Assembly: GCF_038397775.1 (NCBI RefSeq)
Contig: NZ_CP151650.1
Coordinates: forward strand, 558,001 to 622,000
Direction: 5' to 3'
DNA from: Pseudomonas sp. RC10
Lineage (GTDB): Bacteria > Pseudomonadota > Gammaproteobacteria > Pseudomonadales > Pseudomonadaceae
DNA: 64,000 bases
Part shown: positions 28,836 to 36,312 of the stretch, piece after piece
Position numbering within the stretch: the first letter of the stretch is position 1
Layout: the number at the start of each line of letters is the position of its first letter
The notes under the pieces: model-generated
Database searches by the model: none
Told to the model about the DNA's origin: nothing
What the model saw: the letters and a program-made list of their open reading frames with translations, nothing else
Program-made: the position numbers and the translations under genes

Positions 28836-30134
28836 TTACTCGTGATTAACCGCCACACCCTTCAAATAAGGCGCAGGCTCTGCGCCCATGTTTTCCAGCA
28901 ACTTGGCGCTGTACCAGTCGATGAAGTTGACCACGCCGAACTCGTAGGTTTGCGAGTACGGGCCTGGCTGGTAGGCGACGGAGTTGATGCCGCGCTGGTT
29001 TTCTTCGGCCAGGCGACGGTCCTGGTCGTTGGTGGCGTCCCAGACTTCACGCAGGCGCGCGACGTCGTAGTCCACGCCTTCGACGGCGTCTTTGTGCACC
29101 AGCCATTTGGTGGTGACCATGGTTTCCTGTGCGCTCAGTGGCCATACGGTGAACACGATGACGTGATCGCCCATGCAATGGTTCCACGAGTGCGGCAAAT
29201 GCAGGATGCGCATCGAGCCCAAGTCCGGGTTCTTGATGCGGCCCATGAGCTTCTTACTGCCTTGCTGGCCGTCCATGGTCATGGATACGGTGCCTTTGAG
29301 CAGCGGCATACGCACGATACGGTTACGCAGGCCGAAGCTCTTGTGCAGGTAAGGGATCTTCTCGGCTTCCCACGCAGCAGCGGATTCAGCGACGTGATCC
29401 TTGAATTTCTGGTCGGCGCGCGGATCGTTGGTGTCATCCCACTCCAGCAGGGTGTTCAACAGCTCTGGGTGCGAACCACTGCAGTGGTAGCACTCGCGGT
29501 TGTTTTCCAGCACGAGTTTCCAGTTGGCCTTCTCGATCAAGGTGGTTTGCACCGCCACCTTGGTGTTTTCCATGTCGTACGGTTCCATGTAGTGATTCAG
29601 CGTCTGCAGGAACTCGTCGATGGCCGGCGGGTTTTGCGCCAGGCTGATGAAGATGTAGCCGCCGGACACTTTGCAGTGCACAGGCTTGAGGCTGAACTTC
29701 TGCATGTCGAAGTCGGCGCCCATTTCGGTGCCCGCATACAGCAGGCGGCCGTCGAGCTCGTAGGTCCACTGGTGGTACGGGCACACCAGTTTGGCGACCT
29801 TGCCTTTCTCTTTGGTGCACAGACGCGAACCGCGGTGGCGGCAGACGTTGTGGAACGCGGCGACGGTGCCGTCAGGCTTGCGCACGACCAGGATCGGGTT
29901 CTTGCCGATTTCCAGCGTCAGGAAGTTACCTTTGGCCGGAATCTCGCTGGTCATGCCCGCGATCAGCCATTCCTTTTGAAAGATTTCCTGCATGTCGATT
30001 TCAAACAGCCGCTCATCGCTGTAGAAAGGCTGCGGCAGCGAGTACGTGCGCTCGCGGGTTTGCAGCATTTCGGCGGTTGCCTTGCGTGCGGGTTCCAGCG
30101 GATCGCCCAGGCTCAGAGTTGCGGTGACGTCCAT
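28836..30134 (-). CDS. gbcA: glycine betaine monooxygenase oxygenase subunit
   Basis: A 432-residue Rieske non-heme iron oxygenase that removes one methyl of glycine betaine as formaldehyde, giving dimethylglycine. The Rieske cluster ligands are CRHRG (Cys98, His100) and CPYHQW (Cys118, His121). The mononuclear iron histidines are in NNRECYHCSGSH (His217, His222). It is divergent from gbcB, its reductase. GGACTTGAAAG precedes the ATG. Activation by GbdR is established in P. aeruginosa. Confidence 0.96.
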   Translation of the reverse strand: MDVTATLSLGDPLEPARKATAEMLQTRERTYSLPQPFYSDERLFEIDMQEIFQKEWLIAGMTSEIPAKGNFLTLEIGKNPILVVRKPDGTVAAFHNVCRHRGSRLCTKEKGKVAKLVCPYHQWTYELDGRLLYAGTEMGADFDMQKFSLKPVHCKVSGGYIFISLAQNPPAIDEFLQTLNHYMEPYDMENTKVAVQTTLIEKANWKLVLENNRECYHCSGSHPELLNTLLEWDDTNDPRADQKFKDHVAESAAAWEAEKIPYLHKSFGLRNRIVRMPLLKGTVSMTMDGQQGSKKLMGRIKNPDLGSMRILHLPHSWNHCMGDHVIVFTVWPLSAQETMVTTKWLVHKDAVEGVDYDVARLREVWDATNDQDRRLAEENQRGINSVAYQPGPYSQTYEFGVVNFIDWYSAKLLENMGAEPAPYLKGVAVNHE

Positions 30135-30464
30135 CTTTCAAGTCCTCAGGTCGCGGTTTCAGCGGCCTACGAATGTGGCTAATACGGTTGTGTTGTGTGT
30201 CTGGCACGCGAGGCGACGGTGTTGGAAGTCGCTCATGTTTATTAGGTAAAAATCTGTATTCGATTGACGGCGAGTGTGTAGCCGGTCGCGACACGAACCT
30301 TATCCATGGGCGACATGGCCGAATCCGTTTCCGACTACGCAGCCCCTATAGATCGGGGCTGGTCGCCATAAGTATGTGAATGTCGCTGATAGGTAAATAG
30401 GCGGCTCGTGCGTTACGCAGAATCGCCACCATAAGAGGCCGACAGTCGGCCGTGGAGAGTGAGT
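30135..30464. promoter_or_regulatory. gbcA-gbcB divergent regulatory region
   Basis: This 330-bp spacer should hold the GbdR-controlled promoters. Visible structure: AGCCCC-8 bp-GGGGCT at 30342-30361, and GGCCGA-CAG-TCGGCC at 30437-30451. The second hairpin ends 2 bp before the gbcB ribosome binding site (GGAG at 30454) and could affect its translation. I cannot place a verified GbdR site. Confidence 0.45.
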
Positions 30465-31565
30465 ATGTCCCAGAGTTTCCTCAGCCCGGTTACCACGCAG
30501 ACCTGGGCCAATGGCCGCCACCTTGTGCGCGTCGTCAAAGTGATCCAGGAAACCTGGGACGTTCGCACTTTTTGCTTCATGGCCGACCAGCCGATCCTGT
30601 TCTTTTTCAAGCCGGGCCAGTTCGTCACCCTGGAGCTGGAAATCGACGGCGTGCCGACCATGCGCTCCTACACCATTTCCAGCTCGCCCTCGGTGCCGTA
30701 CAGCTTCTCGATCACCATCAAGCGCGTGCCGGGCGGTAAGGTCTCGAACTGGCTCCACGACACCCTGCATGAAGGCCAAGAGCTGGCGGTTCACGGGCCG
30801 GTCGGGCTGTTCAACGCCATCGACTTCCCGAACCCGAAGATTTTGTACCTCAGCGGCGGCGTCGGCATCACGCCGGTCATGTCCATGGCGCGCTGGTATT
30901 ACGACACCAACGCCAATGTCGACATGGTGTTCGTTCACAGCTCCCGTTCGCCAAAAGACATCATCTACCACCGCGAACTTGAGCAGATGGCGTCGCGTAT
31001 CAATAACTTCTCGCTGCACATCGTCTGTGAGAAGCACGGTCTGGGCGAACCATGGGCCGGTTATCGCGGCTACCTGAACCAAAAGATGCTGGAGCTGATG
31101 GCGCCGGACTTCATGGAACGTGAAGTCTTCTGCTGCGGCCCGACCCCTTACATGAACGCGGTCAAGCGCCTCCTGGAAGCCAACGGCTTCAACATGGCCC
31201 AGTACCACGAGGAATCCTTCGGTGCGACGCCACCCGAAGCCCGCGCCGATGCCGTGGAACACGCCGAACAGGCCGCCGACGCGCCGGAAATCGACATTGC
31301 CGAACTGCACCAGGTCGAATTCACCGACACCGGCAAGAGCATCCGCGTGGCGCCAGGCGAAACCGTTCACGCCGCCGCTGCCAAGCTGGGCCTGATGATC
31401 CCGAAAGCCTGCGGCATGGGCATCTGCGGGACCTGCAAGGTGATGAAGCTGAGCGGCGAAGTCGAGATGGAACACAACGGCGGCATTACCGACGACGACG
31501 TGGAAGAAGGCTACATCCTGTCGTGCTGCAGCATTCCGAAGGGCGACGTGCGAATCGAGTATTGA
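30465..31565 (+). CDS. gbcB: glycine betaine monooxygenase reductase subunit
   Basis: A 366-residue three-part reductase. It has a ferredoxin-reductase FAD domain (MRSYTISSSPS), an NAD domain (LSGGVGITPVMSM; CCGPTPYM), and a C-terminal plant-type 2Fe-2S ferredoxin domain (ACGMGICGTCKV...SCCS). It supplies electrons from NADH to GbcA. I chose the ATG at 30465 because GGAG is 7 nt upstream. Confidence 0.95.
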   Translation: MSQSFLSPVTTQTWANGRHLVRVVKVIQETWDVRTFCFMADQPILFFFKPGQFVTLELEIDGVPTMRSYTISSSPSVPYSFSITIKRVPGGKVSNWLHDTLHEGQELAVHGPVGLFNAIDFPNPKILYLSGGVGITPVMSMARWYYDTNANVDMVFVHSSRSPKDIIYHRELEQMASRINNFSLHIVCEKHGLGEPWAGYRGYLNQKMLELMAPDFMEREVFCCGPTPYMNAVKRLLEANGFNMAQYHEESFGATPPEARADAVEHAEQAADAPEIDIAELHQVEFTDTGKSIRVAPGETVHAAAAKLGLMIPKACGMGICGTCKVMKLSGEVEMEHNGGITDDDVEEGYILSCCSIPKGDVRIEY

Positions 31566-31635: not shown

Positions 31636-32634
31636 TTATCCGAGATGGATCTCGGCCCAGTGCTCCTGCGCTGCCCAGCCATTCGGGAATCCCATAGGCT
31701 TCAGCCTTGAGGCGTCCTGATCTCCCAGCAACTTCAACGCTCGAGCTTTCCACTGAGCGTCCGGGCTGATCAGATCAGTCAGATAAGCGAGCATGGTCAA
31801 CACCACGTATAGCCGCTGCGATGGCTGAGGCTGGTTCTGACAAGCCTTGGCGATCGTCCAGCTTTTCGGCAGCGCGGGACGAACAGGCAGCTCTCTGTTC
31901 CACAGGCGTGAGTGGTGCGCGCAACAGTTGCGAATGAACGTCAACGTGTGCAGCCAAGACTCAAGCACTTCAAACGGCAACTTGAACCGGGATGCGATGG
32001 CTTTTTTGTCGCGGCTTCGAGCAATGGCCCTGAACAGCGTTGACACTGTCCCCAGACTCATTTCCTCAAGCATCGCCCACGCGGGCGGTAGCTCAGGATC
32101 GTTATAGGTCGCACCATAAAAACGGAAGTAGTTATCGCGAGCGCGGTTGTCCATGTGTTGGCGTATCGCGTGCTCGGAACGCCCGCTGCGTTGGTTTCGT
32201 GTCAGTTCACGCTTGAGCTTTCTAGCCTCGTCAGCGAGCTTCAGCCTTAGGGGGCGCAACAGTTCGCCGTGTGCATAGGAAGAATGAAACGATTTGGGGT
32301 CGGTTATCCAGCTTGAGCCGAGCCTGGGACTCAGGTGATTGTTGATGGCTGCGCGTACGGCCACTTCGACTCTCTCTATTGCCTCCATGACCAGGCTGCG
32401 TAATGAAGAGTCGAAGCGATAGACCTCTACGATGTCTTTCAATGCGGAACCGGGCTTGAAGGCATGGTCCGGTCGTGTCTCCTGAAACGGCCGCATGTAT
32501 GGGCTGAGCCGAAACAGCGTGACCACCTCCAGCAGACACATTGCCTTGTGTTCATTCGCGATGCGCAGGCCACGTTTTTTCAGCAGTTCCAATTGCTGAT
32601 CGACGCTGAGGGCGGGTTTATCGAATGGCCTCAT
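31636..32634 (-). CDS. Abi_2 (AbiD/AbiF-type) abortive infection protein with HEPN motif
   Basis: A 332-residue Abi_2-family protein. The family core is DSSLRSLVMEAIERVEVAV (about residue 75), the fold region DPELPPAWAMLEEMSLGTVS (about residues 180-200), and the HEPN RNase motif FIRNCCAHHSRLWN with Arg235-x4-His240. HEPN proteins with R-x4-6-H usually cut RNA, and Abi_2 proteins act in phage defence by stopping growth of infected cells. The ATG at 32634 has GGAG 9 nt upstream; an extension to 32691 would run through the RNA terminator. It is a lone gene between gbcB and the chemoreceptors. Confidence 0.88.
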   Translation of the reverse strand: MRPFDKPALSVDQQLELLKKRGLRIANEHKAMCLLEVVTLFRLSPYMRPFQETRPDHAFKPGSALKDIVEVYRFDSSLRSLVMEAIERVEVAVRAAINNHLSPRLGSSWITDPKSFHSSYAHGELLRPLRLKLADEARKLKRELTRNQRSGRSEHAIRQHMDNRARDNYFRFYGATYNDPELPPAWAMLEEMSLGTVSTLFRAIARSRDKKAIASRFKLPFEVLESWLHTLTFIRNCCAHHSRLWNRELPVRPALPKSWTIAKACQNQPQPSQRLYVVLTMLAYLTDLISPDAQWKARALKLLGDQDASRLKPMGFPNGWAAQEHWAEIHLG

Positions 32635-32651
32635 GCCACTTTTCTCCAGGC

Positions 32652-32713
32652 AAAAAAAACCCGCGCGATTTGAGCGTGCTGACCAGGTCAACCTAGGCTT
32701 GGCGGGTGTGTTG
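32652..32713 (-). ncRNA. predicted small RNA upstream of the abi gene (abiF-RNA-like)
   Basis: Read on the minus strand, the promoter at 32720-32747 would start a transcript near 32713. About 5 nt in, ACCCGC (32702-32707) pairs with GCGGGT (32659-32664), closing a structure that holds a smaller hairpin CTAGG-TTGA-CCTGG. Eight Ts follow directly, so the unit ends as a rho-independent terminator 18 bp before the abi ATG. Size is about 62 nt. A conserved abiF RNA motif upstream of abiF genes has been described from comparative genomics; this unit has the expected place and layout. Covariation was not tested. Confidence 0.7.
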
Positions 32714-32719
32714 CGCTGG

Positions 32720-32747
32720 ATTATAGGGACCTCAGGAACGCGGTCAA
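32720..32747 (-). promoter_or_regulatory. strong sigma-70 promoter for the abi-upstream RNA
   Basis: Minus-strand -35 TTGACC (32742-32747), 16-bp spacer, -10 TATAAT (32720-32725). It is the closest match to consensus seen in the window. Confidence 0.75.
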
Positions 32748-32844
32748 CGTTGAGGTTTCAGCAAATTGTAACGGTGGTTTCTCCAGTTTCAGAGGGCAGG
32801 AATGTCGCGATGAACAGCATTCCCCTCCTGGATCTGGAACCCAT

Positions 32845-34470
32845 TTACACCCTGAACCGCGCCACCATCCCGTTCAAATCCACCGCCAGTCGCGACAGTT
32901 CGTTGCTGGCTGCGCTGGTCTGGCTGGCGCCGGTGGTGGATTGCGCAGAGAGGTCGCGGATGTTGACTAGATTGCGGTCCACCTCGCGAGCGACTTGTGC
33001 CTGTTCCTCGGCGGCGCTGGCGATCACGAGGTTGCGTTCGTTGATTTCAACCACTGCGCCGTTAATGGTGTCCAGCCCAACGCCTGCGCCTTTGGCGATG
33101 TTCAGGGTCGATTCAGCGCGTTCGGTGCTGCTGCGCATCGAGTTGACGGCCTTTTCGGTGCCACCCTGAATACTGCCGATCATGCGTTCGATTTCGCTGG
33201 TCGATTGCTGGGTACGGTGGGCGAGGGCGCGCACTTCGTCGGCCACGACGGCAAAACCGCGACCGGCTTCACCGGCACGTGCGGCTTCGATGGCCGCGTT
33301 GAGGGCGAGGAGGTTGGTCTGGTCGGCCAGGCCACGAATGACGTCCAGCACCTTGCCGATGTCGCGGGATTCATCTGCGAGGTTGCCGATCAGGGTGGCG
33401 GTGCTTTGCACGTCTCCGCTCATGCGTTCGATGGCGCTGACGGTTTCCTGCACCAGATCACGGCCGTCGCTGGCCGAAGACGTAGCGTTCTTCGAAGCTT
33501 CCGAAGTGCTGACTGCGTTGCGGGCCACTTCTTCGACGGCGCTGGTCATCTCGTTGACAGCGGTCGCGGCCTGTTCGATTTCGTTGTTCTGTTGCGACAG
33601 GCCTCGGGCACTCTCGTCGGTCACGGCATTGAGTTCTTCAGCGGCAGACGCCAGTTGAGTGGCTGAGCCGGAAATGCGTTGCAGCGTGTCGCGCAGTTTT
33701 GATTGCATCTTCAGCATGGCCGTCAACAAGCGACCCGCTTCGTCCGAACCGTCCGCGACAATCGTTGACGTCAGGTCGCCCTCGGCGATTTCTTCGGCGG
33801 CCTTGAGCGCAGCGCCGATCGGGCGAGTGATGCTGTTGGTCAGCAGCCAGGCGAACAGCAACGTCAGGACCGTCGCAAGGATCAGCAACCCGACCACCAT
33901 ATTGAACGCCATGTTGTATTGCTCGCCCGCAGCAGCGTTGGCGGCGTCAGACTCTTTGCTGTTGATCTCCACCAGCTTCGACAGAACTGCATTCATCTTG
34001 TCGGAGTTTTCCTGCAAGTCGACGTTCAACAGCCGGGCGAGCTCTTCCGTTTTTCCGTCTTGGCTGAGGGCGCGCATGCGGTCTTCGAGCTGACGGTACT
34101 GGATCAGCAGCTGCTTGAATTCGGCATAGTTGGTTTTTTCGTCCGCGGTCGTCGGCAGCTTTTCATAAACAGCCTGGGCGATACCCATTTGCTGGAAGCG
34201 GGATGTCATGGCATCGAGGGTCTTCTGTTGAACGGCCGGGTCACGGTTGACCAGCAGCCGGAAAGACAGGACGCGTAAGCGCACGCTGGTGTCGATCATC
34301 TTGTCCAGGCTGCGAATGCTCGGCACGGTGTTCTTTGCGATTTCGTTGCCTTCAGAGCGAATCTTGCTCATCTGCGTCAACGAGAAGATGCCGAGAAACA
34401 ACATCAGGGCGCCTATCAGGGCAAAACTGAAAAACGCGCGTGGAGCGATGTTCATGTTGCGCAGTGACAT
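32845..34470 (-). CDS. methyl-accepting chemotaxis protein 1
   Basis: A 541-residue chemoreceptor. It has an N-terminal membrane helix ([18 protein letters not shown]), a periplasmic four-helix-bundle domain to about residue 190, a second helix ([17 protein letters not shown]), HAMP ([19 protein letters not shown]) and a cytoplasmic signalling domain with the hairpin tip [20 protein letters not shown]. From HAMP on it is almost identical to the receptor at 34687, while the ligand domains differ. The ligand is unknown. It has its own sigma-28-like promoter. Confidence 0.93.
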
Positions 34471-34686: not shown

Positions 34687-36312
34687 TTACAGGCGGAAGC
34701 GGGCGACCATGCCGTTCAGGTCCACGGCCAGACGCGACAGCTCGTTGCTCGCGGCGCTGGTCTGGTTGGCGCCGGTGGCTGATTGAGTCGACAGATCGCG
34801 GATGTTGACCAGGTTGCGGTCCACCTCGCGAGCAACTTGAGCCTGTTCCTCGGCGGCGCTGGCGATCACGAGGTTGCGTTCGTTGATTTCAACCACTGCG
34901 CCGTTAATGGTGTCCAGCGCAACGCCTGCGCCTTTGGCAATGTTCAACGTCGATTCGGCGCGTTCGGTGCTGCTGCGCATCGAGTTGACGGCCTCCTCGG
35001 TCCCGCCCTGAATACTGCCGATCATGCGTTCGATTTCGCTGGTCGATTGCTGGGTGCGGTGGGCGAGGGCGCGCACTTCGTCGGCCACGACGGCAAAGCC
35101 ACGGCCGGCTTCGCCCGCACGTGCAGCTTCAATGGCGGCGTTGAGGGCCAGCAGGTTGGTCTGGTCGGCGAGACCCCGAATCACGTCCAGGACCTTGCCG
35201 ATGTCGCGGGATTGCTCGGCGAGGTTGCCGATCAGGGTGGCGGTGCTTTGCACATCTCCGCTCATGCGTTCGATGGCGCTGACGGTTTCCTGCACCAGAT
35301 CGCGGCCGTCGCTGGCCGAGGTGGTGGCGTTTTTCGATGCTTCGGAGGTGCTGACCGCGTTGCGGGCCACTTCTTCGACGGCGCTGGTCATCTCGTTGAC
35401 AGCGGTCGCGGCCTGTTCGATCTCGTTGTTTTGCTGGGAAAGGCCACGGGCGCTTTCGTCGGTGACGGCGTTCAGCTCTTCAGCGGCAGACGCCAGTTGA
35501 GTCGCGGAACCAGAAATGCGTTGCAGTGTGTCGCGCAGCTTCGATTGCATTTTCAGCATGGCCGCCAGCAGACGACCGGCTTCGTCATTCCCGTCTACCT
35601 GAATGGTGCGGGTCAGATCACCCTCGGCGATTTCCTCCGCCGCTTTCAGCGCAGAGGAGATTGGGCGAGTGATGCTGTTCGTCAGCAGCCAGGCGAACAG
35701 TAGCGTCAGCAGAGTGGCAATGATCAACAGCGTGACCACCATCGTGAAGGCCGTCGAATACTGGTTCGAGGCGTCTTTGTTGGTGTCGTTGAGCTGCTGG
35801 GTGTTGATTTCCACCAGCTTGCTCAAGACCACGTTCATCTGGTCCGAGTTGGTTTGCAGGTCGTTGTTAAGCAAAGCCGTCAGCTCGTCCAGCTTGTTAG
35901 CGCTGCTCAACGATTTCATGCGGTCTTCGAGCTGGCGATAGTCGCCCAGCAGTTTCACGTATTGATCGTACGTCACCTGCTCTTCAGGGGCGGAGATCAA
36001 TTTCACATAAACGGCGCGTGCTTCTTCGATCTGCCGGTTACGGGTCGCCAGCAGGTCGAGCGTCTTTTGCTGGGTGTCGGCTTCGCGGTTGAGCATCAGA
36101 CGATAGGACAGGACGCGTAGGCGAACGCTGGCCTCGGTCAGCTTATCCAGCGCCTTGATGCTGGGCATGCTGTTGGTGGCCATGACTTCGGTGGCATCGT
36201 TGATCTCGCTCATCTGCGCGAGCGCGAAGATGCCAAGCACCAGCATCAGCAAGCCGATGATGGAGAAGCCGAGAAAAGCACGGGGCGCGATGTTCATATT
36301 GCGAAGGGACAT
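34687..36312 (-). CDS. methyl-accepting chemotaxis protein 2
   Basis: A 541-residue chemoreceptor with the same plan as its neighbour: first helix [21 protein letters not shown], four-helix-bundle periplasmic domain, second helix, HAMP ([19 protein letters not shown]), and a signalling domain with few changes from chemoreceptor 1. The N-terminal 190 residues have diverged (for example [14 protein letters not shown] against [13 protein letters not shown]), so the two probably sense different ligands. CAGGAACAG precedes the ATG. Confidence 0.93.

Follow-up and report, generated by a model that had tools for sequence, protein, structure and literature searches.

Within the window (the whole 64-kb stretch of Pseudomonas sp. 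RC10 DNA analysed here), the minus strand carries, in this order, a promoter, an RNA of about 60 nt, a closing stem followed by eight T's, and an Abi_2/HEPN gene. The promoter (32720-32747) is composed of a -35 hexamer TTGACC (32747-32742), a 16-bp spacer, and a -10 hexamer TATAAT (32725-32720). It had been called near-consensus in the preliminary description, and it does match 11 of the 12 consensus letters. No other site in the 64 kb, whichever strand is read, reaches at least 11/12 at a spacing of 16-18; similar hexamers occur in the closest relatives and weaker ones in other relatives. With its start inferred from the -10 position, the predicted transcript extends from about 32713 to 32652 and lies within the abiF-type small RNA (32652-32714, minus strand) matched by Rfam RF03085 and by our own model R1. 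The RNA stretch reads GCAACACACCCGCCAAGCC...GCGCGGGTTTTTTTT on the minus strand and ends at 32652. The 3′ arm of the closing stem and the T run (32652-32664) probably double as an intrinsic terminator. The stem ACCCGC/GCGGGT with its following T's, as earlier described, is present, the T's ending at 32652; the pattern CCCGC..GCGGG-T6 occurs in the window only at this stem, and a T-rich stretch also follows the closing stem in aligned relatives. A terminator scan that allows loops of up to 8 bases did not list this terminator, whose stem closes a longer stretch. From the end of the T run to the abi ATG there are 17 nt, which corrects the 18 bp first given, and this spacer contains GGAG (32644-32647), judged from its sequence to be the probable ribosome binding site of abi.

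The abi gene (31636-32634, minus strand, ATG at 32634) encodes a protein of 332 aa in which Abi_2 (PF07751; 156.8 bits, cut-off 25.6) is the only Pfam domain at E <= 0.001. PADLOC labels the protein AbiD (191.9 bits), and a comparison with PDB 8vz6_A, an AbiF, gives E 1.6e-51 with both protein halves covered. The minus-strand Abi_2 reading frame and its HEPN motif, which the preliminary description had recognized, are thus confirmed: R235-N-C-C-A-H240 (31915-31932) aligns with RNSCCH of 8vz6, and the HEPN residues R, N, and H are invariant among 17 aligned sequences. By homology, the protein is assigned to the Abi_2 / AbiF-AbiD family. The genome contains one Abi_2 match and one abiF RNA match, both at this locus, where promoter, RNA, terminator, and toxin gene form, as read from the sequence, one unit.

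Structure and conservation of the small RNA

At 32706-32659, the Rfam abiF model (RF03085) scores 34.1 bits (E 1.1e-4 in a search of 301 bases), so that the check proposed in the preliminary description did return the family, but under the cut-off of 37. By the Rfam gathering cut-off the RNA stands outside RF03085, whereas homology and covariation place it among RNAs of the abiF type. All printed consensus positions of RF03085 are identical in the window RNA, which has the consensus nucleotides and helices (P1, P2, and the segment CAAAUC) and the location before an Abi_2 gene in common with the family; it differs in the apical part, unprinted in the Rfam match, which is 19 nt long in the window RNA against 9 nt in the consensus. 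The same cut-off misses most of the Pseudomonas matches listed, 18 of 20 being below 37 in a search of 298 genomes; the filters of that search were tighter, and the copy in the window was not among its listed matches.

The structure was derived from an alignment (A1) of 44 RNAs that precede Abi_2 genes in Pseudomonas, other gammaproteobacteria, Xanthomonas, environmental genomes, and plasmids. Near-identical loci (including L014-L018 and L023), four exact duplicates, L009 (RNA unclear), and the divergent or internally duplicated L008, L010, and L110 were left out; the RNA coordinates of L028 were placed by hand, and two of the 44 RNAs (L035, L037) precede broken toxin genes. Three conserved helices, P1 (7 pairs), P2 (3 pairs), and P3 (6 pairs), are paired in 95.5% of 606 cells, and 13 of the 16 pairs show changes on both sides. 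Double-change cells number 84 vs 22.3 in shuffles, and the pairing falls to at most 43% when the arms are slid by 1-3 columns. The alignment indicates that all three helices covary, the covariation of P1 being partly selected, and to that extent flattered, because its arms were located partly by pairing; P2 and P3 had no part in locating these arms. The 5′ arm of P1, ACCCGCC (32701-32707), is predicted to pair with 32666 and 32664-32659, leaving C32665 bulged. The 5′ arm of P2, AGC (32697-32699), pairs with GCU (32675-32673) in 100% of cells, its first pair being UA, CG, or AU among relatives. P3, the hairpin GUUGAC-CUG-GUCAGC (32678-32692), shows double changes in 6/6 pairs with 84.9% of cells paired, and it is present in the minimum-energy fold of the window RNA. 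Between P2 and P1, the single-stranded CAAAUC (32667-32672) is identical to the Rfam consensus and, after the bulge of AbiFr as presented in the available part of PMC12737573, is likely to be the toxin-inhibiting segment.

The preliminary description had proposed, besides the closing stem, an inner hairpin CTAGG-TTGA-CCTGG and had suggested examining both stems for covariation. The closing stem, our P1, covaries, but the inner hairpin is paired in 53.3% of cells, no more than in shuffles; it is not conserved and was rejected in favor of P1, P2 (AGC/GCU), and P3. Folding energy was likewise dropped as support: the window RNA alone folds no better than shuffles (z = -0.60), and the evidence for structure is therefore comparative.

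Model R1, built from the 44 RNAs with the window RNA among them, gives 68.3 bits at the locus and no other match in the window, that is, a single abiF motif, and no direct repeats were found at 32600-32860. Matches of R1 below 37 bits (mostly 28-40 nt among those listed) were discarded as ordinary terminators, and 44 matches of at least 38 bits were retained; this cut loses genuine RNAs, namely those of L165-L170 and the second RNA of L076, which score 23.8-28.4. In P. putida 700447 (L003), the RNA is identical at 63/63 positions and the promoter stretch at 32/39, while abi codon positions 1, 2, and 3 are 91.1, 93.9, and 67.3% identical, a pattern resembling that of a gene under selection.

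RNA classes and solitary RNAs in bacteria and viruses

A protein match was found in 67 of the 298 Pseudomonas genomes. When an intact Abi_2 gene is defined by at least 290 aa and RxxxxH, 59 genes are counted, and a structured RNA adjoins all 59, 53 recognized by a model at threshold, five as weak R1 matches (L166-L170, 23.8-28.4 bits), and one by eye only (L187). Class I is the abiF type of the window. Class II, a different 5′ RNA, precedes another Abi_2 clade (L171-L174, L176-L184, L188-L191, L076); in its alignment (A3), 99.3% of 153 cells are paired with double changes in 4/12 pairs, and its model R2 yields 30 matches in 29 of the 298 genomes. Class III is encoded on the opposite strand, just past the abi stop codon, with its own promoter-like site and terminator. 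It lies beside 12/12 intact genes counted in one clade (L036, L038, L039, L040, L156-L161, L163, L164), in which the upstream RNA is absent, and it also occurs outside the genus (L092 and L101, and by eye L089). In the class III alignment (A2), 93.8% of 193 cells are paired, with double changes in only 3/15 pairs, and two of the five measures do not clearly exceed those of shuffles; model R3 yields 22 matches in 21 of the 298 genomes. The Rfam abiF model did not match class II (L171, L176, L183) or the scanned class III loci at E <= 1, and a weak R1 match in L158, to its class III RNA (18.9 bits, E 0.034), is no more than a hint of common origin. Because one clade carries its RNA in convergent orientation, not every Abi_2 system can be under terminator control. 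We found no paper on convergent abiF antitoxin RNAs in the open-licence literature searched.

Among 96 RNA loci detected with the three models (44, 30, and 22), the toxin is intact at 53, partial at 16, and undetectable at 27, which leaves 43 without an intact toxin. Broken or absent toxins are found in all three classes (L061, L062, L065, L144-L152, L243-L262). A Pfam re-search of 29 genomes for Abi_2 found none in 16 (E <= 0.01), so that 16 of the 298 genomes have an RNA and no Abi_2 match; in three of these (G153, G044, G230) the RNA is weak or partly unpaired, and some genomes (G135, G137, G169) retain short stubs of the toxin. Some orphan RNAs are identical to a working RNA (G137, G277, G252), and others are eroding, with P1 shortened (L147, L150) or the core changed (L148). 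In the 27 RNAs with undetectable toxins, each compared with the nearest aligned RNA as reference (a few of these references being beside broken toxins), 134 substitutions break 19 pairs vs 49.3 by random placement. Relative to the nearest intact locus, orphan RNAs of classes I and II are 87.9 and 90.8% identical and their flanks 72.5-75.4%. Selection is likely for some bacterial orphan RNAs. Several points tell against a function: a 1-kb gene is a bigger target than a 60-nt RNA and would by chance break first, the searches favor intact helices, and many of the substitutions may predate toxin loss; moreover, RNAs beside intact toxins are conserved more (94.6 and 95.9% in classes I and II). Orphan toxins and antitoxins in general are already in print, according to the sections of PMC9424990 and PMC12654330 available to us.

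Some RNA loci are linked to restriction genes. In L025, L027, L005, and L111, RNA and abi head a type I restriction-modification operon and are followed by hsdM. In L065, L147, and L148, where abi is missing or reduced to a stub, hsdM starts 18, about 90, and about 100 nt past the RNA, respectively; in L144, the toxin is lost and hsdM starts 2.3 kb after the RNA. A 2013 paper (PMC3710099) had already reported restriction operons that contain Abi2/AbiF/AbiD genes, and the portion of that paper available to us does not mention an RNA left alone in such operons.

Solitary abiF RNAs also occur in viruses. An abiF RNA is listed, without an antitoxin reading in the part of the paper at hand, for the lytic cyanophage S-CREM1 (PMC9964418). 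In that genome (L263), the RNA (2532-2568) scores 52.2 bits against the Rfam cut-off of 37 and is located 4 nt before a tRNA-Gly gene, inside a tRNA cluster; no Abi_2 was found in the 178-kb genome at E <= 1. A search with the S-CREM1 stretch revealed six more phages (L384-L389), namely S-SZBM1, S-SRM01, the Aeromonas phages PZL-Ah8, T7-Ah, and PZL-Ah152, and Salicola phage CGphi29, all six above the Rfam cut-off with 49.3-55.7 bits. None of the seven isolated phages with an abiF RNA has an Abi_2 match. In S-SZBM1 and S-SRM01, the RNA again precedes a tRNA by 4-5 nt, and the connector and capsid-assembly genes flank it in the three Aeromonas phages, which are T7-like Studiervirinae. Among viral contigs, an exact RNA pattern occurs in at least 120 stretches (L264-L383); R1 gives 37.8 bits or more in 73 of 74, a score not independent of the pattern, which shares letters with R1. 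Pfam found no Abi_2 in 43 of the first 44 contigs among these stretches. With a purpose-built HMM, trained on relatives of the window's Abi_2 family only, an Abi_2 ORF directly follows the RNA in 6 of the 120 viral stretches listed and in none of the other 114; the contigs are fragments, and in several stretches little sequence is left beyond the RNA. A blastn search of phages with the 63-nt RNA of the window gave no match.

The simplest reading of the viral solitary RNAs, and the one their occurrence suggests, is that of a phage-borne antidote to AbiF, an RNA for disarming the defence; such a reading was not found in the open-licence literature searched. It would apply to a lytic T4-like cyanophage and to T7-like Aeromonas phages, with some of the RNAs in tRNA arrays. 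Alternatively, the RNA could tune host RNA metabolism, or it could serve as a terminator or leader, in keeping with the T's that follow many viral copies; in the cyanophages, however, a tRNA follows the RNA, so that use as a terminator is unlikely there. A broader proposal, in which phages use the RNA for counter-defence, solitary bacterial RNAs, kept although the toxin is lost, provide immunity against AbiF of mobile elements, one Abi_2 clade has turned the RNA into a convergent gene of its own, and the core of the system is action in trans, not attenuation, could in our judgement go either way. If it is true, the solitary abiF RNAs of phages are RNA counter-defence and AbiF exerts real pressure on lytic phages. 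This wider pattern of solitary and convergent RNAs outweighs the single locus in importance.

Proposed mode of action and known systems

The preliminary description regarded the mechanism of such loci as little described, a view now out of date because experiments on AbiF_Cd and RCd22 of C. difficile have been published (PMC12373285; this and the other papers on homologues are cited from excerpts). AbiF_Cd is toxic and requires the HEPN residues R202 and H207. RCd22, upstream of abiF, ends in a terminator with rare read-through; it lowers abiF expression in cis and binds and neutralizes the toxin in trans, for which its stems are needed, and this AbiF has been described as a new type III member (PMC12373285). 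PDB 8vz6 is described in a review as the complex of PbAbiF with its ncRNA, with one RNA per monomer, in which the RNA inhibits the RNase (PMC12737573); this Prevotellaceae AbiF RNP (PbAbiF-AbiFr) is due to Zilberzwige-Tal et al., as cited in PMC12373285 and PMC12737573.

With the parts of the RC10 locus and their order, the homology of protein and RNA, the covarying structure, and the strong conservation of the RNA all observed, the locus very probably encodes an AbiF/AbiD-type toxin with an RNA antitoxin. A single promoter would direct synthesis of the ~60-nt RNA, with the closing stem and U run stopping most transcripts and a minority reading through into abi. The short, abundant RNA would fold into P1-P2-P3, bind the HEPN RNase, and block it, and the terminator would keep the RNA dose above that of the toxin. 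If the RNA disappeared, for instance because infection had halted transcription in the host, the RNase would be freed, RNA cut, and growth stopped. Co-transcription, attenuation, direct binding, RNase activity, and toxicity at this locus are extrapolated from the published homologues, and phage defence by the locus is presumed. The earlier suggestion that the RNA restrains the HEPN RNase now has good support from the homology to 8vz6, the covarying RNA, the 59/59 Abi_2 genes with an adjoining RNA, and the RCd22 experiments (PMC12373285). The other suggestion of the preliminary description, relief of the terminator on phage infection, gains no support from the present data. In the sections available, the AbiF literature offers such relief as speculation, reports a phage protein acting on the abiD1 5′UTR, and notes that an effect of AbiF on lytic phages is hard to demonstrate (PMC12373285).

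That the RNA is only a cis attenuator, a terminator leader lowering abi expression without binding the protein, would agree with a terminator that follows the promoter and ends 17 nt short of the abi ATG, and with the cis effect in the homologue (PMC12373285). We nevertheless consider it very improbable, since conservation and covariation extend to nucleotides and helices outside the terminator, the convergent RNA of a related clade cannot attenuate its gene, RNAs occur without a toxin in genomes and viruses, and the homologous RNA binds in trans (PMC12373285). The convergent class separates antitoxin action from attenuation and is in this respect a natural experiment; together with the solitary RNAs, it implies that what these systems share at their core is binding in trans, to which attenuation has been added locally. 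Still less probable is a crRNA-like guide or activator that directs the HEPN RNase to phage RNA. Its appeal comes from the published evolutionary link between AbiF and Cas13, in which AbiF is proposed as the Cas13 ancestor (PMC12737573). A variable spacer is absent, the RNA outside P3 being among the most conserved parts, there is a single HEPN motif, no repeats are present at 32600-32860, and the RNAs of PbAbiF and AbiF_Cd are reported as inhibitors (PMC12737573, PMC12373285); the guide reading was rejected on the absence of spacer and repeats. Equally remote is the view that the locus is in decay and no longer functions. Copies in that state are frequent in Pseudomonas, as the 43 of 96 RNA loci show, but here the ORF is intact, its codon positions diverge from L003 in the uneven manner given above, and the RNA is unchanged.

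As a toxin with an RNA antitoxin, the module appears to be an AbiF-RNA pair of the recently described kind and contributes a case from a Pseudomonas chromosome in which there is one motif and the closing stem is also the terminator. AbiF_Cd/RCd22 resembles it in having promoter, abiF RNA, terminator, and Abi_2 gene in one unit and in RNxxxH; it differs in carrying two motifs in RCd22 vs one here, in using a separate hairpin as terminator, and in its site, the lysis module of prophage phi027 in Clostridioides difficile (PMC12373285). PbAbiF-AbiFr has a homologous protein with the aligned RNxxxH in both but comes from a different organism, the comparison made here being between the proteins. Type III toxin-antitoxin systems (ToxIN, AbiQ, CptIN, TenpIN) likewise combine an RNA, a terminator, and an RNase gene, with neutralization by RNA presumably common to both; unlike their toxins, that of the window is HEPN/Abi_2 and not ToxN-like, Abi_2 being its only Pfam domain (E <= 0.001), and its RNA has no tandem repeats, with no direct repeats at 32600-32860. 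Type VI CRISPR-Cas13, with its two HEPN motifs and adjacent CRISPR array, does not fit a 332-aa protein with one Abi_2 domain and one HEPN motif beside a region free of repeats (32600-32860). The lactococcal AbiD/AbiD1/AbiF proteins are of the same family as the window protein, as its PADLOC label AbiD indicates, and are plasmid-borne.

Chromosomal setting

In both the window and L003, the module is located between gbcB and a chemotaxis receptor gene. No abi match stands beside gbcB in the stretches examined from 12 other genomes with gbcB; a receptor gene is close to gbcB in L194 and L197 and follows after about 1.2 kb in L201. The G+C content at the locus is not aberrant, and the identified neighbors are gbcA, gbcB, and receptor genes. 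At 28836-31565, the window contains divergent Rieske oxygenase and ferredoxin-reductase genes, recognized by their Pfam domains, a pair that we take to be gbcA/gbcB of glycine betaine demethylation. On the other side, tandem chemotaxis receptor genes (32845-34470 and 34687-36312, minus strand) adjoin the module. The two receptors are 96.3% identical over residues 301-541 and 56.5% over residues 1-200, which suggests that their signalling halves have been homogenized.
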